A DNA stretch of 33,766 nucleotides from an uncultured Bacilli bacterium. GTDB taxonomy: Bacteria > Bacillota_I > Bacilli_A > RF39 > UBA660. Under the pieces are notes generated by a model. It saw only the letters and a list, made by a program, of their open reading frames with translations, ran no database searches and was not told where the DNA came from. Positions 4,778 through 33,766 of the stretch are shown here, in pieces. The first letter of the stretch is position 1; each line of letters opens with the position of its first letter. Made by a program: the position numbers and the translations under genes. The stretch is taken from positions 1 to 33,766 of the forward strand of contig CALVQX010000006.1 of NCBI GenBank assembly GCA_944358405.1. The letters run 5' to 3'.

Positions 4778-5728
4778 ATGTTACAATTTGAAAAACCAAT
4801 TTATAAAATAACAGATTCTGTAGAAAGTAATTTCTATGGAAGATTTGAACTAGAACCATTAGAAAGAGGATTTGGAACTACAATTGGTAATGCCCTAAGA
4901 AGAGTAATGTTATCATCTCTTCCTGGAAGTGCAATTAGTAGTATCAAAATTGATGGAGTTCTACATGAATTTCAGACGATGGATGGTGTATACGAAGATG
5001 TAACTACAATCATTCTAAATCTAAAGGGAGTAGTATTCAAAAATCATTCAAATGAAGCAAAGGTAGTACGTATTCATGCTGCAAAAGAAGGAGAAGTTAC
5101 TGCTGGAGATATTGAGCATGATGCCGATATTGAAGTAATTAATAAGGATAAGGTAATTGCCACTTTATCAAAAGGTGCCACTTTAGATATGGAAATGACA
5201 GTTACCAATGGTCGCGGCTATGTAAGAAGCGAAGAAAACAAAAAAATACATGATATTAAAAAACCAGGAGTAATTGCAATTGATTCAATATATTCTCCGA
5301 TTGAAAGAGTTTCATATGAAGTGGGAAGTGCTAGAGTTGGACAAGATGAAAGTTATGATAAATTAACATTGGATGTATGGACCAATGGTTCAATCAAGCC
5401 AGAGGAAGCGATCGCTTTAGCATCAAGAATTTTAATTGAACATTTTACAATTCTTACTGATTTATCAGCAATAGCAGATGTAAGTGGAATGATGATCGAA
5501 AAAACGGAAGATCCAAAAGTAAAAGCATTAGAAACTTCAATTGAAGATTTGGACTTTTCAGTAAGAGCATATAACTGTTTAAAAAGAGCAGGAATTCATA
5601 CATTGCAAGATCTTGTAAATAAAAGTGAATCTGATATGATGAAAATACGTAATTTAGGTAAAAAATCTCTAAAAGAAGTATTAGATAAAATTAGAGATAT
5701 GGGTCTAATTTTACGTGATGATGACTAG
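4778..5728 (+). CDS. rpoA: RNA polymerase alpha subunit
   Basis: The alpha subunit dimerises to nucleate RNA polymerase assembly and contacts UP elements and activators. The 316 residues hold a complete N-terminal domain (residues about 1-230, with [23 protein letters not shown]) and a C-terminal domain (about 245-316) with the helix-hairpin-helix region [19 protein letters not shown]. The acidic end LRDDD is normal. It follows the AGGGAGGT ribosome-binding site and precedes rplQ. Confidence 0.98.
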
Positions 5729-15150: not shown

Positions 15151-18100
15151 GTGATTGTTAGATTAATAAAAAAGACAAAAATCTATAATTTTACTTTGCC
15201 AACGAAAATATCAGGAAATTATTGGATCACTGACAACGATTATCTAGGAAATAACAGAAACCTTATTAATGTTGAAGAATGTGATGGAAAGTGGAAGATT
15301 AAAAGCGATTTTGAAACAAAAATCATGTCTGGTGAAAGAGAGATAGAATCTGCCTTTTTAAAAGAGTATAATCTTTACTTTTTAAAAATTAATACGGATA
15401 ATGAATATGTAATATTATACTGTTCTCCTACTATTGATCCGGTCGTTAGCAGACTACATTTAAAAAAAGAAGGAGAGCTTATCATTGGAAATGATTCTAG
15501 TGCACATATTAATTATAGCTATCCATTAGTATCAAAACAACATGCTAAATTAACTTATAATAATAATAAATGGGTCATTCAAGATCTAAATAGTAAATAT
15601 GGAACTTATGTAAATAATACTGCAATTACAACAAAAGAGCTAGAATATGGAGATATTATTTTTATCATGGGATTAAAGATCATTGTTTTAAAAGGATCGA
15701 TCATCGTAAATAATATTGGCAACTCCATAAGATTAGATAGCAACAGTTTTGAATTGGAAAGTCCGATTATCCAACATCAAATAGAAATGGATAACCCAGA
15801 AGAAGAAAATATAGAGTTTTATAAAGAGGAAGACTATTTTTATCGTGCTCCAAGATTTAAAACAAGAATAGAAGATGCAAATATAAAAATAGATCCACCA
15901 CCAGGAAAAGAAGCAGAAGATAAAACTCCAATGATTTATACAGTAGGTCCGATGATGACTATGGCAATGATGTCTGTATCCATGGGATATTCTTCTTTAA
16001 GTGGAGTAATTGATGGATCAAGAGACTTATCAGAGGCATTGCCAACTTTACTTATGTCTTTTGCCATGCTGATGACGATGTTATTATGGCCAATTTTAAC
16101 GAAGAGATATCAAAAAAGACAGAAGAAGAAAAGAGAAAACTTACGTCAGACAAAATACACAGACTATATAGAATCTAAAAGAGAAAAAATTCAAGCAGAG
16201 ATGAAGATTCAACGCCAAATTTTAATTGATAATTATCTTCCTTTATCGGAAACAAAGGATATCATTTATTCAAGAAAAAGAAATTTATGGGAAAGAGAAA
16301 TAGAACAAGAAGACTTCTTGACTCTTCGATTAGGAATTGGTACAACGGAATTAAGAGGAACAATTAGTTTCCCGGAAGAACACTTTTCACTAGATGATGA
16401 TAATTTATTACAAGAAGTATATAAATTAGGTGCAGAATCCAGAATGTTAGAAGATGTTCCAATATCTCTATCTTTTATTACTAACAATATTACAGCAATC
16501 ATTGGTACAGCAAACAATAAACAACAATTTATTGAAGGATTATTATTGCAAATGATGACTTATCATAGCTATGAGGATTTAAAAATTGTCATTTTAACAA
16601 ATGAAAAAAATAGTACAAATTGGGATTATTTAAAAGTATTACCACATTGCTGGAGTAATGATAAATCAATTAGGTATTTTGCAAGCAATCTAGATGAGGC
16701 AAAAGAGATTTCTCTAGCCTTAGAACAAGAACTACAAGCTAGAAAATATAGAGATGTTAATGGAAAAATGGAATTAAATACAGCAGATTATAGAAGATAT
16801 AAACCCTATTATGTTTTAATTACCGATGATTATAAATTAGTAAGAGATGTAGAGCTAGTAAAAGATGTAGCAGAAATGCAAATAAATATTGGATTTAGTT
16901 TGATTGTAATTAGTCCAAGATTAGTAAATTTACCTAACGAGTGTAAAACATTTATCAGTATCGGAGATAAAAAATCAGGAGTGTTTGAAAATGAATTAGT
17001 TTCCAATAAACAAAAAGAATTTGTAGCAGATTTTGATCCTACCTTAAATATGCATGAATGCTGTCAGATTCTAGCAAACATTCCTATTGATATTGCAAAA
17101 GAAAACCGCAGCTTACCAGCCAGCTTGAGTTTTTTGGAAATGTATAATGTTGGTATGGTAGAACAATTAAATATTACAAATCGTTGGAAGCAAAATGATC
17201 CAACGAAATCATTACAAGTTCCAGTAGGAGTAGATAAGTCTCAGGAATTATTCAAATTAGACTTACATGAAAAGTTTCACGGACCACATGGCTTAATTGC
17301 AGGTATGACCGGTAGCGGTAAATCAGAATTTATTATGACCTATATTTTATCTATGGCCATCAACTATCATCCATATGAAGTTTCCTTTGTTTTAATCGAC
17401 TACAAAGGTGGAGGACTTGCTGGAGTATTCCAAAATAAAGAAACAGGAATGAAATTACCTCATCTTGCCGGAACCATTACCAACTTAGATACAGTGGAGA
17501 TGAATCGTTCCTTAGCATCCATTCAAAGTGAACTTAGAAAACGCCAAAGAATATTTAATGAAGCAAGAGATAAATTAGATGAGAGTACAATAGATATTTA
17601 TAAATATCAAAGTCTTTATCGCAAAGGACTAGTAGATAAACCAGTTTCTCATTTATTTATTATTAGTGATGAGTTTGCAGAATTAAAATCTCAAAGGCCA
17701 GAATTCATGGACCAACTAATATCAACTGCTCGTATTGGACGTTCTTTGGGAGTTCACTTGATTTTAGCAACACAAAAACCAGCAGGGGTTGTTAATGATC
17801 AAATTTGGTCCAATTCAAAGTTCAGAGTATGCTTAAAAGTACAAGATAAATCAGATAGTATGGATATGATAAAATGCCCAGATGCAGCAGCATTAAAAAA
17901 TCCAGGAAGATTTTATCTGCAGGTAGGTTACAATGAACTATTTTCGCTAGGACAAGCAGCATGGGCAGGAGCACAATATTACCCAACAGAGAAAAGAAAG
18001 AAAAAAGTAGATCACGGAATTGACTTCATCGATAATGTTGGAAATACAATAAAGACGATGGAAAATAAACAAAATGAAATTCAAATACAATCTAAAGGAG

Positions 18101-19728
18101 AAGAGATCACGAATATTGTAAAATATATTGTAGATGAAGCAAAAAAAGAACAAATTTATATTGATCAACTATGGCTAGATAGGATTCCTAATGTAATTTA
18201 TGTAGACAATTTAAAGAAAAAATATAATTTTGTTCCACAGAAAAATAATATCAATCCAGTAATCGGAGAATACGATGATCCAGATAATCAAAAACAAAAT
18301 ATTTTGACTCTACCACTTTCTCAAGAAGGAAATACAATTATATTTGGAACAGCGGGAAGCGGAAAAGAACTAATGATATCAAGCTTGATTTATTCTACAA
18401 TAGTAGCTCATGATTCTAAAGAAATCAATTTTTATATCTTAGATTTTGGAGCAGAAACACTAACCATGTTTAAGAATGCTCCACATGTAGGAGAGGTATT
18501 ATTATCAACAGATGTAGAAAAAATAGCGAACTTATTTAAGTACATTTATCAAGTGATTGAAGAAAGAAAAAAAATCTTTGTAGATTATAATGGTTCTTAT
18601 GATTTTTATATTAATCATGGTGGCAAACAAATTCCAATGATTGTTATTGTAATTAATAATGTAGAGGGATTCTTAGACATTTATAAAGAGTATGAAGAAT
18701 TAATTGGACAAATTACTAGGGATTGTTTAAAATATGGAATTGTCTTTATTTTAAGCACTAGTGGTCCAAATACAGTTCGCTATCGTTTAAGACAAAATTT
18801 CCGTCAAAATATTGTCCTACAATTTAATGATCCATCTGACTATGGTTCTGTTTTAGCCGGAGCCAGAAAAAAAGAACCATCTAAAGTTTATGGAAGAGGA
18901 TTAGTAGACAAAGAGGGAATCTATGAATTCCAAACAGCATATCCATATAAAGAAGAAAAAATGATCGATTATATCAAGATCATTTGTTCAAAATTAAATT
19001 ATATTTGTGACTATAAGGCAAAGAAAATTCCAACTTTACCAGAAACTGTCACAGAAAGAGAAGTAGCCGAAAAAATTGGAAGTCTAAAAGAGATTCCTAT
19101 TGGTATTGAAAAAGAGAGCCTAGCAATCGCAACAATTAATTTAGAAAAAAATGCAATATTCAATATTACTGGAGAAGATATTAGTGCAGAGCCAAGAATG
19201 ATCCGAGGAATCATGCAAATTATATCTAAAATTCCAAATGTAAATTGTATAATTCTAGATGCGATAAGTATTTTGAATGGAATTACAGCGGAAAATATTT
19301 TATATGATAAAGAAAATTGCTCCATAGGAATTGAAAAGTTAACAGAGATTTATCAGCAAAGCTTACAAACACCAACTACCTCAACTACCGTCTGTATGAT
19401 TGTAGGAATTAGTAATTTATTATCAAGAATGGATATAAACACAAAAACAAAATTCACTGCCATGATAGAAAAGACATACAAAACCAATATGGTGAAGTAT
19501 ATTTTTGTAGAAACCATTGATAATATTAAATCAATTAATTTTGAAATGTGGTATAAGAGTGGTGTCGATTTATCAGAAGGTATCTGGATCGGCAATGGAT
19601 TAGCAAATCAATTTACCCTAAAAGTTACAACTAGTGCTAGAATACTAAGAGCAGAAATAGAACCAAACTTTGGATATATAATTAGAAAAGGAAAAGCTAC
19701 TTTAATCAAGTTCATTTCTGATGAATAG
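15151..19728 (+). CDS. essC: Type VIIb secretion motor ATPase EssC
   Basis: EssC is the membrane motor of Bacillota ESX/type VII secretion. The 1525-residue order fits: an N-terminal region with one clear FHA domain (about 105-185, VSKQHAKL and DLNSKYGTYVN), two membrane segments (about 262-287 and 299-318), a degenerate ATPase-like domain, then three FtsK/SpoIIIE-type domains. D1 is canonical: Walker A GMTGSGKS (718-725), LIDYKGGG (748-755) and IISDEFAE with D840-E841. D2 has GTAGSGKE (1066-1073), with Glu where Ser/Thr is expected, and D3 has no P-loop Lys (NITGEDIS). The GTG start is supported by GGTTGGTGAT. It leads an operon of four genes. Confidence 0.93.
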   Translation: MIVRLIKKTKIYNFTLPTKISGNYWITDNDYLGNNRNLINVEECDGKWKIKSDFETKIMSGEREIESAFLKEYNLYFLKINTDNEYVILYCSPTIDPVVSRLHLKKEGELIIGNDSSAHINYSYPLVSKQHAKLTYNNNKWVIQDLNSKYGTYVNNTAITTKELEYGDIIFIMGLKIIVLKGSIIVNNIGNSIRLDSNSFELESPIIQHQIEMDNPEEENIEFYKEEDYFYRAPRFKTRIEDANIKIDPPPGKEAEDKTPMIYTVGPMMTMAMMSVSMGYSSLSGVIDGSRDLSEALPTLLMSFAMLMTMLLWPILTKRYQKRQKKKRENLRQTKYTDYIESKREKIQAEMKIQRQILIDNYLPLSETKDIIYSRKRNLWEREIEQEDFLTLRLGIGTTELRGTISFPEEHFSLDDDNLLQEVYKLGAESRMLEDVPISLSFITNNITAIIGTANNKQQFIEGLLLQMMTYHSYEDLKIVILTNEKNSTNWDYLKVLPHCWSNDKSIRYFASNLDEAKEISLALEQELQARKYRDVNGKMELNTADYRRYKPYYVLITDDYKLVRDVELVKDVAEMQINIGFSLIVISPRLVNLPNECKTFISIGDKKSGVFENELVSNKQKEFVADFDPTLNMHECCQILANIPIDIAKENRSLPASLSFLEMYNVGMVEQLNITNRWKQNDPTKSLQVPVGVDKSQELFKLDLHEKFHGPHGLIAGMTGSGKSEFIMTYILSMAINYHPYEVSFVLIDYKGGGLAGVFQNKETGMKLPHLAGTITNLDTVEMNRSLASIQSELRKRQRIFNEARDKLDESTIDIYKYQSLYRKGLVDKPVSHLFIISDEFAELKSQRPEFMDQLISTARIGRSLGVHLILATQKPAGVVNDQIWSNSKFRVCLKVQDKSDSMDMIKCPDAAALKNPGRFYLQVGYNELFSLGQAAWAGAQYYPTEKRKKKVDHGIDFIDNVGNTIKTMENKQNEIQIQSKGEEITNIVKYIVDEAKKEQIYIDQLWLDRIPNVIYVDNLKKKYNFVPQKNNINPVIGEYDDPDNQKQNILTLPLSQEGNTIIFGTAGSGKELMISSLIYSTIVAHDSKEINFYILDFGAETLTMFKNAPHVGEVLLSTDVEKIANLFKYIYQVIEERKKIFVDYNGSYDFYINHGGKQIPMIVIVINNVEGFLDIYKEYEELIGQITRDCLKYGIVFILSTSGPNTVRYRLRQNFRQNIVLQFNDPSDYGSVLAGARKKEPSKVYGRGLVDKEGIYEFQTAYPYKEEKMIDYIKIICSKLNYICDYKAKKIPTLPETVTEREVAEKIGSLKEIPIGIEKESLAIATINLEKNAIFNITGEDISAEPRMIRGIMQIISKIPNVNCIILDAISILNGITAENILYDKENCSIGIEKLTEIYQQSLQTPTTSTTVCMIVGISNLLSRMDINTKTKFTAMIEKTYKTNMVKYIFVETIDNIKSINFEMWYKSGVDLSEGIWIGNGLANQFTLKVTTSARILRAEIEPNFGYIIRKGKATLIKFISDE

Positions 19729-22784: not shown

Positions 22785-23738
22785 ATGATAGAGAAACAAT
22801 TTAAAAATTTAGATGAGCAAATTGAAATATTCAAACATAAAGGACTAATCATAACAGATGAGAAATATACAAAGAATGTTCTTTTACGTGAAAATTATTT
22901 CTTTTTAAATGGATATCGTCATCTATTTTTTAAATCAGCAACTGACAAAACATTTATTAAAGGAACTAGATTTGAAGAATTATACAGTGTTTTTTTATTT
23001 GATCGCTCTATTAGAAATGTCTTCTTTAAATATCTTTTAGTAATTGAAAACAACTTGAAGTCAATCACTTCTTATCAATTATCTAAAAAATATGGATATA
23101 GAGAAAGAGATTACTTAAGAGCAAAGAACTTTACTAGTGCTCCAGAGAAGCAAAAACAAGTAAATGATCTTTTGAAAAAAATGAAAAGACAAATTAGAGT
23201 TAATGGTTCACAACATAGTGCTACTCTACATTATGTATCAAATTATGGATATATTCCACTATGGATTCTAGTAAAAGTACTTTCCTTTGGTATTGTTAGT
23301 GAAATGTTTTCTATTTTAAAACCTGAAGATCAAAAAGAAATAAGCAAAGTGTATCATATTGAACCAGAAACATTTATGGTTTATCTACCAATTCTCGCTA
23401 ATTATAGAAATTTATGTGCACATGAGGATATTCTATATGAAAATAAAACTCAAAAAGAAATCGATAATACGATCTACCATCAATTATTAGATATACCAAA
23501 AGAAAATGGGGAATATATATATGGGAAAAATGATTTATTTGCTCTATTAATTATTATGAAACAAATGTTACAAGCAGAGGAATATAAGAATATGACGATG
23601 GAATTAGATAATATAATTCAAACTCTAAATTATAATTTAACAACAATAAAAATTGGAAAGGTATTAAAAAAGATGGGCTTTCCTATGAATTGGAAAGATC
23701 TAACAAAGATCGAAAGGAGTGTAGATATTGATGAATAA
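22785..23738 (+). CDS. Abi family protein (AbiD/AbiF type, HEPN ribonuclease-like)
   Basis: Abi_2 family proteins are found in phage abortive-infection loci and are predicted HEPN-domain ribonucleases. The 317-residue protein shows the N-terminal pattern NYFFLNGYRHLF, the FEELYSVFLFDRSIRNVFF helix, YIPLWILVKVLSFG and the HEPN active-site RxxxxH as R208-NLCA-H213. It is complete, with no damage seen. Its last 8 bases overlap the start of the HtrA-like gene, so the two are translated together. Antiphage activity is plausible from the family but not shown by the sequence. Confidence 0.85.
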   Translation: MIEKQFKNLDEQIEIFKHKGLIITDEKYTKNVLLRENYFFLNGYRHLFFKSATDKTFIKGTRFEELYSVFLFDRSIRNVFFKYLLVIENNLKSITSYQLSKKYGYRERDYLRAKNFTSAPEKQKQVNDLLKKMKRQIRVNGSQHSATLHYVSNYGYIPLWILVKVLSFGIVSEMFSILKPEDQKEISKVYHIEPETFMVYLPILANYRNLCAHEDILYENKTQKEIDNTIYHQLLDIPKENGEYIYGKNDLFALLIIMKQMLQAEEYKNMTMELDNIIQTLNYNLTTIKIGKVLKKMGFPMNWKDLTKIERSVDIDE

Positions 23739-26470: not shown

Positions 26471-26518
26471 AAAGTAGCCAAAAAAATATCTTTTCATAGA
26501 CTATTATAGGTGATAAAA

Positions 26519-26809
26519 ATGTATGAAAGAGCAACCAAAAAGGTAATAGTAGATGCTGGACATGGGGGAGATGATCCTGGTGCAATAGGGAATGGACTAC
26601 AAGAAAAAGATCTAAATTTACAAGCGGCACAATATATGTATAAGAGATTACAAGAGTTAGGAATACCATCAACAATCATAAGGGATAGTGATGAAACTCT
26701 ACCAAAAGATTCTAGAATTGAAAGAGTACAAGAAGTATTAAATAGCTATGGAAATACCCCTGATGTAATATTAATTTCTAACCACATAAATGCGGGAGGA
26801 CATACTTAG
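26519..26809 (+). pseudogene. Truncated N-acetylmuramoyl-L-alanine amidase (Amidase_3)
   Basis: The first 90 residues match the N-terminal half of an Amidase_3 domain: VIVDAGHGGDDPGAIG (zinc His), QEKDLNL (zinc Glu) and LISNHINAGG (zinc His). The frame then stops after GHT, where a complete enzyme would continue for about 80-120 residues including the catalytic Glu (as in VLIECGYL of the CwlD-like protein in this window). It is therefore cut off and very likely inactive. The start ATG follows AGGTGATAAA; a GTG at 26510 overlaps that site. What follows has no similarity, so the break is probably the left edge of an inserted or recombined segment. Confidence 0.8.
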
Positions 26810-27332: not shown

Positions 27333-28757
27333 ATGAAAATGAGTGATGATTGTAAAAAAAAATGTCAGATTTTTACTCCTAAAAACAATGTAAAAGAGAT
27401 GTTAGATTGGGTTGGATATATAAAGAATTTATATGGAAAAAAAATAATTGAACCAAGCTGTGGACAAGGTAATATACTTGTTGATGTAATTGAAAGGTAT
27501 ATTGTAGACGCTATTAATAATAATTATACAAAGGATGAAATTAGAAAAGGATTATCACAAGATATTTATGCTATTGAGTATGATCCGAAACACTATAATA
27601 AATGTATAGATAATATTAACCTAATTCTAAAAAAGTATAATATTGGAAAAGTTGATTGGAATATATATTGTGGAGATTCTTTAAAAATTAATTTAAAAAT
27701 GAAATTTGATTACGTCGTAGGAAATCCGCCTTATATTAGTTATAAAATGTTAGATGAACAAACAAGAAAATATGTTAGAGAAAATTTTAGAACATGTACA
27801 AAAGGCAAATTTGATTATTGCTATCCATTTATTGAAAAAGGGGTTGAACTTTTAAAAAAAGGAGGAAAAATAGCCTTCTTGGTTCCTGGTAGTATTTTTA
27901 AAAACGTATTTTCAAGTAATTTAAGAGAATATTTAAAAGAGGATATAATTGATATTTATGACTATGCTACGAAGAAATTATTTAATGAATATGCAACAGG
28001 AGAAAAGAAAAAAATTCTTACGTCTTCTATAGTTTTTATTTTAGAAAAAGGAAGTAAAAATGGCACATTGAATTATTACAATTTAGATAATAAAAACAAG
28101 ATAGAAGTTGAAAAGAAAAAATTGGGAAATAAATGGATTTTTAATGAAATTTATATTGGTCAAAAAAGATTTGGAGATTATTTTAAGGTTTCAAACTCAA
28201 TTGCAACTTTGTGTAATAAGGCATATGTCATCACCGAAAAAGATGATTTATTTTATAATAAGTCAGAAAAGAAGATTATAAAAAATGCAGTTAGTCCAAA
28301 AAGTATAGAGCTAAACAAAAAAGAAAAAATAATATTTCCATATTATTATAATTCAAAAGAAAGACTTGTAAGAATAAATGAACAAAATTTTTCTGCAAAT
28401 TTTCCTTGCACGGAAGAACATTTAAAGAAATTTATTACTGAATTAAATAATAGAAAATCTGATAAAAATATACAATGGTTTGAATATGGTAGAAGTCAAG
28501 CTTTGAATGATATGGATAAACCTAAATTATTATTATCAATTATAGTTACTGGGAAAATTAAACTATATATTTTATCTAAAGATACTATACCTTATTCTGG
28601 TATATATATAATACCTAAAAAAAATATGACATTGGATATGGCAAAAGAGATTCTTGAATCAAATGAATTTCTTGATTATATAAAAAGTGTGGGAATCAAT
28701 GCAAGTGGTGATTCATATAGAATTACAAGTAAGGATATAAGTAATTACTATTTTTAG
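27333..28757 (+). CDS. Eco57I-like adenine-specific DNA methyltransferase
   Basis: The protein is a class I N6-adenine DNA methylase using S-adenosylmethionine. The N-terminal FTPKNNVKEMLDW is the lead-in found in such methylases, motif I is EPSCGQGN (residues 40-47) and the catalytic motif IV is NPPY (131-134). Motif VI-VIII type sequence follows (LLKKGGKIAFLVPGSIFK). Residues about 200-474 are a compact target-recognition region (FKVSNSIATLCNKAYVI, YYYNSKERLVRI) typical of Eco57I-type single-chain enzymes, but without a fused nuclease. It is the first gene of the island operon; the GHKL gene follows 11 bases later. Self-protection methylation is the likely role. Confidence 0.9.
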   Translation: MKMSDDCKKKCQIFTPKNNVKEMLDWVGYIKNLYGKKIIEPSCGQGNILVDVIERYIVDAINNNYTKDEIRKGLSQDIYAIEYDPKHYNKCIDNINLILKKYNIGKVDWNIYCGDSLKINLKMKFDYVVGNPPYISYKMLDEQTRKYVRENFRTCTKGKFDYCYPFIEKGVELLKKGGKIAFLVPGSIFKNVFSSNLREYLKEDIIDIYDYATKKLFNEYATGEKKKILTSSIVFILEKGSKNGTLNYYNLDNKNKIEVEKKKLGNKWIFNEIYIGQKRFGDYFKVSNSIATLCNKAYVITEKDDLFYNKSEKKIIKNAVSPKSIELNKKEKIIFPYYYNSKERLVRINEQNFSANFPCTEEHLKKFITELNNRKSDKNIQWFEYGRSQALNDMDKPKLLLSIIVTGKIKLYILSKDTIPYSGIYIIPKKNMTLDMAKEILESNEFLDYIKSVGINASGDSYRITSKDISNYYF

Positions 28758-28768
28758 GAGATGATAAA

Positions 28769-31222
28769 ATGGAAAAGATAAAATTTAATGTTTCTTCAAA
28801 GACAGCACGACTAATAGGTAGAGAAAATATTTCTGATTCAAATGGTGCAATAATAGAGTTAGTAAAAAATGCATATGATGCTGATGCGGATAGTGTATAC
28901 ATAAAATTTGATATAATTTTTGAAAATATACCAGAAAAAATTATTGCTTCCGAAGTCAAAGATTATTTTAATAAAGAAGAGTATAATGTATTAACATCTT
29001 TATATGATCAAAAAGGTGATGTTTTAATAAGAAGAAACAATTTGACAGACGAACAGGAACAAACTTTAAAAAGTTTATTATTTAGTAAAAATAGTATTAT
29101 TATATTAGATAATGGTACAGGTATGAATGAAAACATAATTAAAACTATATGGATGAATATCGGTACAAGTGACAAAGAAATAAATGCATATAGTAAAAAA
29201 GGAAGAATAAAAACAGGTGCTAAAGGAATAGGAAGATTTGCTTTAGAAAAACTATCTCAAACAACAACAGTTTATTCAAAAACAGAAAATGATAAGTTAG
29301 TGTATTGGAATCTTGATTGGATGCAATTTGATAAAAAGAATTTATTAGATGAAATAAAAGCTGATGTTGGTGTTCTTGATTCTAATTTTTATGATATTGT
29401 ATCAAAATATATTGATCCAACTGAATTAAACCAAAGAAATATAAATATTAATTCAGGTACTTTAATTATCCTTTCTGGAACAAGAGAGGTTTGGGGGGAT
29501 AGGATATATAATAGAATTAATAATAATCTAAATAGTATAAATCCCTTTGGTAATGTAGATACATTTAATGTTTATATTAACAATATTGTAAAAAAAGATT
29601 ATAATTATTCGCCACAAAATACATTTTTATCTGAAGAAGATTATGATTACATAATAAGTGCAGAATATGATGGCAGTAACAATATTATTATTAATTTAAC
29701 AAGAAATGAGGTTGACTTAACAGCAACTGATGACCAAAGAGTAATAAATGATAAAGTATACAAATTTGATATAAATGATTTTTGGAGAAGAGATGCATTT
29801 AAGAAATCACCATATAAAAAAGAAGAGTATTCATCTACTTTAGTTGAAAAATATGATGTACTTGACTTAATGAATAAAACAACACTTGAAGAAATTAAGA
29901 AAATAGGTAAATTTAATCTTCAATTTTATTTTTTGAAGTCAGGTAAAAGTGAATTTAACATTATTAAAAATATAAAAGTAAGCCGAAGAAAAAAACTTTT
30001 ATCATCATTTTCAGGTATTAAAATATATAGAGATAATTTTAAAGTTAGGCCATATGGTGAAGAAGGCCCAATGTATGATTGGTTACAATTGGGATCTCGT
30101 GTTCAAAGTAGTCCAGCAGGAATTGCTCATCCAACAGGCTCTTGGAGAGTTAATACATATCAATTAATTGGTAATGTAAATATAAGTAGAATGAATAATC
30201 CGAATTTAGTAGATATGGCGAATAGAGAAGGTCTTGCATTAAATGATACTTACTATTTATTTGTCGAATTAATACAAAATATTATTTCAAAATTTGAATA
30301 TGATAGACAGTATATATATAGAGAATATGGCTCATGGCTAAAAAAAAATATTGATGCTATAACTCCAACTGCTGTGATACAAAAAAGTATAGTTGATGAA
30401 AAAGAAAAAAATCAAAAAAATGAACTTGATTTTTCAGATGAAGAGTATAAAGAAGCTATTTATCAAACCATAAATGATAAGAGAAAATCTGTTGATACAC
30501 AGAGAATTATGATGAATTTTAGTTCTGTTGGTGTAACTGCAAATACTTTTGCACATGAAATGAAAAGTATAGCTACAAATTTATCAAGTAGGAATAAACA
30601 ATTAAAAATATGTATTGATAATATTTTACAAAACAAAGAATTTGATGGTCCTGATTTTTTAAATCCATATATTCCGTTAGAGAACGGAGAGCAAAATGAT
30701 ATTTTATTAAGTAAATGGCTAAAATTAATTATGGATAGTGCAAGTAAAAAAAATTCTAAGGTTGAAAAAATATCATTGTTAGATTTCTTTAGAGAGTTAT
30801 ATGATGATTGGGACGGTTTATTAGAAAAAAAATCGATAAAACTGAATGTTAATAATGAGAATGATTGTTACGTTAATTGTGAAAAAACAGATTTATATTT
30901 GGTTTTTAATAATCTCATATTAAACTCGGCATATTTTTTAGAACAAGAAATAAATGGAAGAGAACGCTCAATTGATATATCTTTTATTGAAGAAAAAGAT
31001 GATGTTGTTTTTACATTTCAAAATAATGGCCCAAAATTAGACAAAAAATATACTAGTACTCCTGATATAATATTTGAAGCAGGAGAAACAACAAAAGAAA
31101 ATGGCACAGGACTAGGCTTATGGATATGCAAAGATTCAGTTCAAAGAAATAATGGTGAAATTCATGTTATACCTTGCGATGTTGGATTTAAAATTAAAAT
31201 AAAATGGCCAAAGGTGGATTAA
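28769..31222 (+). CDS. Large ATPase with two GHKL domains (MORC/Hsp90-like plus histidine-kinase-like)
   Basis: This 817-residue protein has two GHKL (Bergerat) ATP-binding folds. The first, at the N-terminus, has N-box E30-LVKNAYDADA, DNGTGM with D114, and GAKGIGR (150-156), like MORC, MutL and Hsp90 ATPases, which dimerise on ATP. The middle (about 200-560) is unassigned. Near residue 596 is an H-box-like FAHEMKSI with H596. The C-terminal domain has a kinase N-box (NLILNSA, N715 and N719), a G1-like QNNGPK with Asn for Asp, and G2 GTGLGLWICK. AGGAGATGAT precedes the start. The receiver gene follows after one base, so a phosphotransfer pair is likely. Confidence 0.88.
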   Translation: MEKIKFNVSSKTARLIGRENISDSNGAIIELVKNAYDADADSVYIKFDIIFENIPEKIIASEVKDYFNKEEYNVLTSLYDQKGDVLIRRNNLTDEQEQTLKSLLFSKNSIIILDNGTGMNENIIKTIWMNIGTSDKEINAYSKKGRIKTGAKGIGRFALEKLSQTTTVYSKTENDKLVYWNLDWMQFDKKNLLDEIKADVGVLDSNFYDIVSKYIDPTELNQRNININSGTLIILSGTREVWGDRIYNRINNNLNSINPFGNVDTFNVYINNIVKKDYNYSPQNTFLSEEDYDYIISAEYDGSNNIIINLTRNEVDLTATDDQRVINDKVYKFDINDFWRRDAFKKSPYKKEEYSSTLVEKYDVLDLMNKTTLEEIKKIGKFNLQFYFLKSGKSEFNIIKNIKVSRRKKLLSSFSGIKIYRDNFKVRPYGEEGPMYDWLQLGSRVQSSPAGIAHPTGSWRVNTYQLIGNVNISRMNNPNLVDMANREGLALNDTYYLFVELIQNIISKFEYDRQYIYREYGSWLKKNIDAITPTAVIQKSIVDEKEKNQKNELDFSDEEYKEAIYQTINDKRKSVDTQRIMMNFSSVGVTANTFAHEMKSIATNLSSRNKQLKICIDNILQNKEFDGPDFLNPYIPLENGEQNDILLSKWLKLIMDSASKKNSKVEKISLLDFFRELYDDWDGLLEKKSIKLNVNNENDCYVNCEKTDLYLVFNNLILNSAYFLEQEINGRERSIDISFIEEKDDVVFTFQNNGPKLDKKYTSTPDIIFEAGETTKENGTGLGLWICKDSVQRNNGEIHVIPCDVGFKIKIKWPKVD

Positions 31223-31223
31223 T

Positions 31224-31886
31224 ATGAAAGAATATAAAATTGGAATTATTGAGGATGATTCGGAGGAATTAAATTCAATTAAAAGGACTATATATACTCA
31301 TCTATATTCCAATCATACAATTATATATAAGGATTATGATTTGAATAATAAAACTTTAAATTATGCTGATATTATAGATGAAATCAAAAAAGATATTCTT
31401 GATGATAGAATTATGCTATTAATTATTGATAATAAATTAGTTGTTGAAGGCAACAGATTAAAAGGCACTTCAATTTATGAAGAAGTAAAAAAGATAGCTA
31501 GTGATTTCCCAGTTATCATTATGACTAATTATAGAGATGAAGCTTATGATAGTGACTATGTAGATCCGGATAAAGTTTATGACAAGGAAAAATTCTTTTT
31601 GAATGGGGAATATACTAATGAAAAGATTAATTCAATTTGCTTGTCAATTGAAAAATATAGTAAATTAAAGAAAAATATAATTGCTGAAAAAAATAGACTT
31701 ATTGATGAATATAAGAAAGAAAATGTTGATGATGGTCAAGATAAATTAAATGAATTATTAAAAGTTGAGTTAGAAATGAAAAAATACACTCCGGTAGAAA
31801 CAACATATTTGGAACAGTTAATATCTCCTGAATATGTGAAAGAAATAGTTGAATTATTGGATGAAATAAGGGGTAAATTAGATTAA
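31224..31886 (+). CDS. Receiver-domain protein without output domain
   Basis: The first 125 residues fold like a response-regulator receiver: acidic pocket E10-D11-D12 (GIIEDD), putative phospho-acceptor D69 (LLIIDNKL), Thr101 (VIIMTNY) and a candidate Lys in the DKVYDKEKF segment. The insert GNRLKGTSIYEEV after D69 is normal. The rest (about 130-220) is a helical, charged tail (KKNIIAEKNRLIDEYKKEN) with no DNA-binding or enzymatic domain that I can see. It starts one base after the GHKL gene, so it is probably its partner. It could gate the nuclease or helicase. Confidence 0.8.
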   Translation: MKEYKIGIIEDDSEELNSIKRTIYTHLYSNHTIIYKDYDLNNKTLNYADIIDEIKKDILDDRIMLLIIDNKLVVEGNRLKGTSIYEEVKKIASDFPVIIMTNYRDEAYDSDYVDPDKVYDKEKFFLNGEYTNEKINSICLSIEKYSKLKKNIIAEKNRLIDEYKKENVDDGQDKLNELLKVELEMKKYTPVETTYLEQLISPEYVKEIVELLDEIRGKLD

Positions 31887-32891: not shown

Positions 32892-32930
32892 ATAAGTTTG
32901 TTTAAAAATAAGGGAAATATTGAAGAAACA

Positions 32931-32939
32931 TGGTATAAT
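32931..32939 (+). promoter_or_regulatory. Extended -10 promoter of the helicase gene
   Basis: TGGTATAAT is a TGn extended -10, 18 bases before the ATG at 32958. No good -35 is present. The helicase can thus be expressed apart from the methylase operon. Confidence 0.6.
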
Positions 32940-32957
32940 TATACTGGAGGTTATACT

Positions 32958-33766
32958 ATGTTTCATGAATTAATTAAAAAAATATGTGATGAATGGTATA
33001 GTTCGGATAAATGTAAAATAAAGAACATTATAAATTACATGATAGAGCAAGATAAATTAAGAGATGCTCAAATAGAATCAATAAAATTATATTTGTTCTT
33101 TAAAATATATTGCAAAAATCAATCTTTAGAGAGACTTTTTAACGAAGGATATTTTTTACAAAATATAGATTTAGATGAATTACCTATATCTAAAAAATTA
33201 AATGATTTTTTATGTGATAATACTGCTGCAAGACAATTATATGAAATATCATTAACTGATGATAATTACAAAGAATTACAAGAAGAAATAGAGAAAAATT
33301 ATTTAACATTAGATTTTAAATCAATCTTTAAAAATTTTTTTCATAATACTGATTATGCTAATTACATTTACTCATTGCCAATGGGAGCAGGTAAAACTTT
33401 TTTAATGTCGGCTTTTATATATCTTGATTTGTATTTTGCTATGAATGAGCCATATAATAAAGCATTTGCACATAATTTTATTATTCTGGCTCCATCCGGA
33501 TTGAAGAGCTCTATTGTACCTAGTTTAAAAAAGATAAAAGACTTTAATGTGACATGGATTTTTCCTGAACCAATAGCAAGTAATTTAAAGAAAATTTTAA
33601 AATTTGAAATATTAGATGCTGTTAAAACTGATAAAAAAAGTAACAAAATAAAAAATCCCAATGTTGCTAAAATAGCCCAATATCAACCATATAAAGATAT
33701 GTTTGGAGTAATATTGTTAACAAATGCCGAAAAAGTTATATTAGATAAAGTAAAAATAGAGAATGA
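32958..33766 (+). CDS. DEAD/DEAH-type helicase (3' partial)
   Basis: The frame is open from ATG 32958 to the right edge, 269 codons. CTGGAGG lies 7 bases before the start. After about 130 helical residues it shows motif I as LPMGAGKTFLMSA (Walker A G143-AGK-T147) and motif Ia-like FIILAPSGLKSSIVPSL, the layout of superfamily 2 helicases in type III and other restriction systems. The rest (DEAD box, helicase C) lies outside. It is a separate transcript from the methylase operon yet is likely part of the same system. Confidence 0.82.
   Translation, partial: MFHELIKKICDEWYSSDKCKIKNIINYMIEQDKLRDAQIESIKLYLFFKIYCKNQSLERLFNEGYFLQNIDLDELPISKKLNDFLCDNTAARQLYEISLTDDNYKELQEEIEKNYLTLDFKSIFKNFFHNTDYANYIYSLPMGAGKTFLMSAFIYLDLYFAMNEPYNKAFAHNFIILAPSGLKSSIVPSLKKIKDFNVTWIFPEPIASNLKKILKFEILDAVKTDKKSNKIKNPNVAKIAQYQPYKDMFGVILLTNAEKVILDKVKIEN

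Follow-up and report, generated by a model that had tools for sequence, protein, structure and literature searches.

We put at an even chance the reading that the ORF at the centre of this analysis serves a mobile, restriction–modification-like cassette of four genes as its sensor kinase, with a nuclease gated by a phosphorelay and a DNA clamp as the sensor. The stretch of DNA analysed here (the window; 33,766 nucleotides) comes from the fragmented genome of an uncultured Bacilli bacterium (about 90% completeness) and ends, together with its contig, 1.2 kb past the HNH nuclease gene of the cassette. The four genes lie on the + strand, separated by 11, 1 and 21 bp (Table 1). All four are intact, the catalytic residues of all four proteins are invariant among relatives and the linkage of the genes is conserved. 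A fuller reading is that of phosphorelay-licensed restriction, in which a MORC-like clamp senses, a His–Asp relay turns on the HNH nuclease and the methyltransferase protects self DNA, making up a hitherto undescribed defence cassette of bacteria and archaea; this we hold tentatively, at somewhat below an even chance. The new part is the four-gene cassette around the kinase, not the layout of the kinase itself.

Table 1. Features of the cassette in the window (positions are those of the window; aa, residues of the protein concerned).
Feature	Position	Strand	Basis or remark
Eco57I-type DNA methyltransferase, 474 aa, first cassette gene	27333..28757	+	Pfam, PADLOC
Methyltransferase NPPY motif	27723-27734	+	Conservation
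Double-GHKL sensor histidine kinase, 817 aa	28769..31222	+	ORF, Pfam, conservation, AF2, Foldseek
N-terminal MORC/paraMORC-type GHKL module, about aa 1-203	28769..29377	+	HATPase_c_3, invariant motifs, Foldseek MORC2/MORC3
E30 codon	28856-28858	+	N-terminal GHKL module of kinase
D114 codon (in DNGTGM)	29108-29110	+	N-terminal GHKL module of kinase
GAKGIGR, aa 150-156	29216-29236	+	N-terminal GHKL module of kinase
Middle (S5/transducer-like) region, about aa 204-530	29378..30358	+	Conservation, MORC2/3 alignment length, hhalign
Dimerisation/histidine-phosphotransfer (DHp) helices, about aa 557-658	30437..30742	+	H596 conservation
H596 codon	30554-30556	+	Within FAHEMKSI, 30548-30571
C-terminal histidine-kinase catalytic (CA) domain, about aa 660-817	30746..31219	+	HATPase_c, PDB profile, conservation
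N715; N719	30911-30913; 30923-30925	+	Kinase catalytic domain
G1 Asn752; GTGLGL (aa 779-784)	31022-31024; 31103-31120	+	Kinase catalytic domain
Stand-alone receiver, 220 aa: REC domain + helical C-terminal extension	31224..31886	+	Conservation, AF2, Foldseek
Receiver D69 codon	31428-31430	+	REC domain; also T101, K121
PtuB-like HNH endonuclease, 210 aa	31908..32540	+	Pfam, PADLOC, profile
HNH H55 codon	32070-32072	+	Catalytic residue

Relatives of the kinase were collected by scanning GTDB genomes with a four-sequence profile; 420 were confirmed and the best 80 of these were kept as loci. Conservation was calculated from an alignment of 82 proteins, the GTDB loci in it coming from those best 80 of the 420. 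The initial annotation had proposed two different GHKL modules in one protein with an H-box between them. Both modules were identified in Pfam above the curated cut-offs, as HATPase_c_3 at residues 107–194 (E = 9.1e-15) and as HATPase_c at residues 706–814 (E = 8e-14). The motifs named for each module are present in the sequence and are strictly kept among these best-scoring relatives: E30, D114, G116, G118, G150, K152, G153, G155 and R156 of the N-terminal module in 82/82 (A151 in 81/82), and N715, N719, G779, G781 and G783 of the C-terminal module likewise in 82/82. Free variation of H596 had been named as the observation that would count against an H-box; the residue is invariant in all 82 proteins, residue 597 is Glu or Asp in each of them, and in an alignment with a bona fide HEF_HK protein H596 falls on the phosphoacceptor His. 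These data support a true H-box. This conservation is not due to chance. In the middle region, the alignment of homologues has a near-invariant stretch, GIKIYRDNFKVRPYGE, at residues 416–431, together with D437-W438. The protein combines the features of a two-component histidine kinase (a His with a neighbouring acidic residue, N and G2 boxes and a partner REC domain with an invariant Asp) with those of a MORC/paraMORC GHKL ATPase (N-terminal GHKL motifs, an S5-type transducer and a restriction–modification neighbourhood).

The Asn reported at the position of the G1 Asp is indeed there (N752) and is a character of the lineage, with Asn in 40 homologues and Asp in the other 42. All 40 belong to a single clade of 41 rows, fully supported and including the window, one viral row being unscored for this residue. 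The G1 Asp of histidine kinases is thus replaced in every member tested of the window clade (Bacillota/Spirochaetota), and because Asn752 is shared across a supported clade it is an inherited character and not a sign of decay of the window copy. The single published-type HEF_HK example also has Asn at G1, reading NNGP. This Asn may reduce the binding of ATP by the kinase domain in the window clade.

A monomer of the window kinase was modelled with AF2 from 72 sequences (mean pLDDT 83.8, pTM 0.77). Stretches within residues 536–594, the linker into the H-box helix, have low confidence, so that the coupling between the two halves falls outside the reach of the model. Foldseek searches of the PDB returned both folds and not only one: histidine-kinase cores, namely ZraS (best E = 2.5e-12), CpxA and HK853, some of the matched structures having been solved together with a response regulator, and the ATPase modules of MORC2 and MORC3 (E = 1.6e-11 to 1e-10), including MORC2 with DNA. 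The MORC alignments extend over 557–591 columns and are long enough to take in the middle region of the kinase. From the two sets of matches it follows that the protein resembles MORC over its first two thirds (GHKL and transducer-like), with long helices joining this part to the DHp/CA core. A sequence-profile search of the PDB with the kinase family reaches kinases only (profile positions 575–837), and it is therefore the fold and the GHKL motifs that relate the N-terminal half to MORC. The earlier suggestion that this half is an ATP-gated clamp standing in for a sensor domain agrees with the fold match to MORC2/3.

The N-terminal module also resembles the GHKL part of the BbrUII/HgiDII restriction enzymes, and distant members of the family match PADLOC REase_II. 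Because of this resemblance, the likeness to MORC2 (solved with DNA) and the example of VcSduA (PMC12137116), the MORC-like part may sense DNA; the evidence points weakly to moderately to DNA as the ligand of the kinase and to an anti-phage action of the cassette. The N-terminal module might instead be the working DNA-looping MORC/MutL-like ATPase of a restriction complex, with the kinase half and the receiver only switching it on and off. Looping of the DNA that lies between the recognition site and the cleavage site has been proposed as the task of paraMORCs in restriction–modification operons (PMC2292703), and such a role would suit both the N-terminal catalytic residues, which are as strictly invariant as those of the kinase half, and the likeness to HgiDII-type enzymes. 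We nevertheless consider it unlikely, as the N-terminus holds the sensor position of a kinase and carries no fused nuclease or helicase, and as the sister families keep the N-terminal GHKL module, kinase and receiver with quite different partners, which suits a conserved input device.

The sister families were compared using a FastTree phylogeny of 115 kinases, which is unrooted and has some long branches; in it a supported branch (95) separates the HNH-cassette kinases from the HEF_HK, Campylobacter-plasmid and other viral-contig types. Kinases beyond this branch are accompanied by longer receivers, mostly of about 340–650 residues, with unrecognised C-terminal parts. Many further double-GHKL kinases outside the HNH clade are found on viral contigs (L109–L172), mostly followed by longer receiver-like proteins, and some of them sit behind a methyltransferase; they probably make up a group of sister systems whose effectors differ.

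Bellieny-Rabelo, Pretorius and Moleleki (2021) described soluble proteins consisting of HATPase_c_3, a DHp-like domain (HEF_HK, PF19191) and HATPase_c, linked them to paraMORCs and already proposed HATPase_c_3 as the sensor; their genes adjoin a Response_reg_2 receiver (PF19192) and are enriched near type II restriction–modification genes (PMC8011034). The single-protein double-GHKL layout is therefore already known. The window pair shares this layout (HATPase_c_3, His box, HATPase_c and an adjacent receiver) and its restriction–modification neighbours, and in an hhalign profile comparison the cassette kinase and HEF_HK are homologous along their length (692 columns, E = 2.9e-32), the middle region of the kinase included. 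The literature led us to expect that the window pair would be HEF_HK/Response_reg_2, but this assignment was rejected for want of a PF19191 or PF19192 match. None of 47 kinase family members matches PF19191 at E<=0.01, and a search of 23 genomes or plasmid records gave no PF19191 match at the cassette loci. The PF19191 model itself works, since a true HEF_HK was found in the genome of locus L088 at a separate position, where it is accompanied by a C5 methyltransferase and a PF19192 receiver. PF19192 is absent among the 25 of 75 families listed for 73 receiver relatives; the control locus L092 matches it at 6.9e-37. The pairs differ further in that the window receiver has 220 residues and no detectable relation to an example Response_reg_2 protein, and in that HEF_HK neighbourhoods contain C5 methyltransferase, Vsr and HNH_2 among others, whereas the cassette has an Eco57I-type methyltransferase and a PtuB-like HNH protein.

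The methyltransferase, an adenine methyltransferase by type, matches Pfam Eco57I (E = 3.2e-23) and PADLOC MTase_II (E = 2.5e-47), and its residues N131, P132, P133 and Y134 are kept in 73–74 of 76 relatives. The nuclease matches Pfam HNH (E = 1.7e-6) and PADLOC PtuB (E = 2.4e-13); C37, H55, N76, C81, N85 and K88 are present in 78/78 relatives, and the family profile matches solved PtuB chains (Septu/retron effectors). For the window receiver there was no Pfam match at E<=1, and Response_reg (PF00072) is matched by 47 of 73 relatives. In the receiver alignment D69 is kept in 73/73, K121 in 72/73 and T101 in 70/73 (family equivalents T/S101 and K/R121), with acidic residues 10 and 11 in all. The AF2 model of the receiver (pLDDT 91) is closest among solved folds to the PorX and XynC receivers by Foldseek. 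A single-sequence tblastn search of plasmids with the receiver gave no matches, which indicates that the family diverges fast and that a profile is required. One cassette receiver, from Segatella copri (L060, 9535–10185), matches the PADLOC candidate PDC-M60B (E = 4.5e-7), which may mean that a receiver related to it is already listed among unverified defence candidates.

The invariant residues of kinase and receiver argue strongly for His–Asp phosphotransfer, in which H596 would donate to D69. What the receiver would do with the phosphate bears on a regulatory reading, namely that the two-component system controls the expression (transcription or timing) of an ordinary restriction–modification pair and not the activity of the nuclease. 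The sister system has been suggested to control restriction–modification systems directly or indirectly (Bellieny-Rabelo et al., 2021; PMC8011034), and the GHKL kinase of CapK/CapS directs the transcription of immune operons upon DNA damage (PMC13373217). We regard transcriptional control as quite improbable for the cassette, since the families listed for the 73 receiver relatives include no DNA-binding domain and the AF2 model has a helical extension that is not an HTH. Lacking a DNA-binding domain and being followed directly by the nuclease gene, the receiver would rather act on the HNH protein by contact, and these data argue moderately for gating of the nuclease by the receiver.

Cassette loci were collected by the kinase alone, and the partner genes were then sought using three partner profiles. 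The complete four-gene cassette, which like type II restriction–modification systems encodes a methyltransferase and an endonuclease together, was found in 77 of the 82 kinase-selected loci (from the best-scoring relatives). Three of the exceptions (L032, L039 and L082) are explained by contig ends. The other two, the sister loci L020 and L021, have kinase, receiver and HNH genes with no methyltransferase within about 7 kb, and the methyltransferase is therefore not strictly required; the nuclease there may be tolerable or inactive in the absence of self-methylation. Kinase and receiver are adjacent in 82/82, and the genes abut or overlap, with median gaps of 1 bp (kinase–receiver), −1 bp (receiver–HNH), −2.5 and 9 bp. 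The order methyltransferase–kinase–receiver–HNH occurs in Bacillota, Spirochaetota and a few MAGs binned as Bacteroidota. The order kinase–receiver–HNH–methyltransferase occurs in Bacteroidota, Pseudomonadota, a few Bacillaceae/Paenibacillaceae, Campylobacterota, Verrucomicrobiota, Kiritimatiellota, Myxococcota, Thermodesulfobacteriota, Auribacterota and an archaeal MAG (Methanolobus). The cassette spans at least 11 phyla, including this one archaeon, in addition to IMG/VR viral contigs, 17 of which carry kinase, receiver, HNH and methyltransferase genes together (L093–L095, L097–L108, L115 and L124).

The place of the methyltransferase also bears on a further alternative, programmed cell suicide (abortive infection), in which the relay-activated HNH nuclease would attack host DNA and the methyltransferase would be a partial antidote or an epigenetic input. 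The HNH protein is closest to the PtuB effectors of Septu/retron systems, signalling ahead of cutting is typical of abortive systems, and two loci are without a methyltransferase. A suicide role seems improbable to us, since nearly all loci have a methyltransferase at fixed positions, like self-marking restriction–modification systems. Taken together, the data suggest a DNA-restriction, probably anti-phage, system that is switched by a signalling relay.

The kinase is sparsely distributed, being present in 2/241 genomes of the order of the window, in 5/395 of its class (window included) and in 5/295 of a Bacteroidota class sample (seed included). In these whole-genome samples the HNH gene adjoins the kinase gene in 9/9 matches (four class relatives and five from Bacteroidota, one of them a seed). 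Such a patchy distribution fits a mobile defence system. Close relatives of the window copy are in an uncultured Bacilli MAG (L010; 82% identity) and on a viral contig (L093; 48%). No close copy of the Enterobacter cassette was found in the E. coli genomes searched, and the GenBank phage collection gave distant relatives only, on unverified scaffolds. On a Rhizobium phaseoli plasmid (L005, 6941–9568) a frame break splits the kinase gene into two ORFs; downstream of it lie cassette genes and a transposase-like ORF.

Just upstream of the window cassette (26510–26809) lies a truncated N-acetylmuramoyl-L-alanine amidase of 99 residues. In other members of the same bacterial family its homologues often end at about residue 97–99, and several of the fragments have a large serine recombinase no more than a few kb away. 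At L010 an amidase fragment (5069–5305) and a serine recombinase are directly upstream of the cassette; further fragments were found at L183, L184, L187, L191 and L192. This suggests that the truncated amidase site is a recurrent integration hotspot of mobile elements. A helicase-like ORF on the other side of the cassette (32898–33764, open-ended at the contig end) was rejected as a cassette member by inference, as its place at L010 is taken by a NUDIX-like and a different helicase-like gene. This ORF contains a P-loop-like GAGKT motif and weakly matches NF046055 (a restriction endonuclease family; E = 0.0016), and is perhaps another restriction–modification gene of the island. Elsewhere, the window encodes an Abi_2 (abortive-infection type) protein about 4 kb upstream of the cassette (22785–23738; E = 6.4e-41) and a 1525-residue FtsK/SpoIIIE protein with an FHA domain (15151–19728) that resembles the EssC ATPase of type VII secretion systems. 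Promoter and terminator predictions in the window were set aside because their counts were at or near chance (55 promoters found versus 54.8 expected; one terminator versus 0.7).

In the mechanism that we favour, phosphorelay-gated restriction, the kinase would be a soluble dimer whose N-terminal MORC-type GHKL module and middle domain form an ATP-gated clamp loading on DNA; the ligand could alternatively be a DNA-processing intermediate of the kind that infection or unmodified DNA gives rise to. Clamp closure would be relayed by the long helices to the DHp/CA core, leading to phosphorylation of H596, and the phosphate would pass to D69 of the neighbouring receiver. The phosphorylated receiver would then release or activate the PtuB-like HNH nuclease by protein contact, and the Eco57I-type methyltransferase would mark self DNA. 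Weighing against this mechanism are the two loci that do without a methyltransferase, the G1 Asn with its possible effect on ATP binding, and the lack of a PADLOC model of either the kinase or the window receiver. Control of restriction enzymes normally lies with DNA methylation alone. If the proposal is correct, a nuclease placed behind a two-component relay links signal transduction in bacteria directly with DNA restriction. The cassette would then also be a natural example of a MORC-type clamp serving as sensor, and so bear on the way in which MORC, MutL and their relatives among the clamps report on DNA. With the four genes so strictly linked and the residues invariant, every step can be tested by single-residue mutants.

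No family in PADLOC, Pfam or NCBIfam covers the window kinase–receiver pair, and no description of the cassette was found in the open-access literature, a scope that leaves most subscription papers and all preprints outside. Several known systems share parts of it. Detocs is a two-component phosphorelay in phage defence with a receiver-linked purine nucleoside phosphorylase. Its sensor is another one and its effector a phosphorylase, whereas the cassette has an HNH nuclease and a methyltransferase; neither the kinase nor the window receiver has a PADLOC match, and the effector gene is HNH. Septu and the type I-A retron (PtuA with PtuB) likewise partner a PtuB-like HNH nuclease with an ATPase, but the ATPase of the cassette is a GHKL kinase and not PtuA, and a receiver and a methyltransferase are added. 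PtuA beside PtuB, as in Septu, was not found, the window cassette having no PADLOC match to PtuA apart from the HNH stretch.

The paraMORC and prokaryotic MORC ATPases of restriction–modification operons (Iyer, Abhiman and Aravind, 2008; PMC2292703) share with the cassette kinase an N-terminal GHKL module followed by a transducer-like region, DNA methylase and HNH neighbours and mobility; the cassette kinase differs in being fused to a complete histidine kinase with a receiver next door, and the conserved cassette has no SFII helicase. In CapK/CapS and VapKSC a DNA-activated GHKL kinase phosphorylates a partner and an effector is released, ssDNA-activated CapK/VapK freeing a nuclease toxin in this way (PMC13373217). 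There, a serine of a STAS domain is phosphorylated, and there is neither a histidine box nor a REC domain (PMC13373217); by analogy, we take CapK/VapK as a precedent for the proposed logic and not for the cassette kinase family. In VcSduA (paraMORC3-Shedu), the ATPase and nuclease residues are both required for anti-phage activity (PMC12137116). Like the BbrUII/HgiDII enzymes and VcSduA, the cassette ties an N-terminal GHKL ATPase to DNA cleavage; the nuclease is fused in those proteins, whereas in the cassette it would be coupled in trans through the kinase and the receiver.
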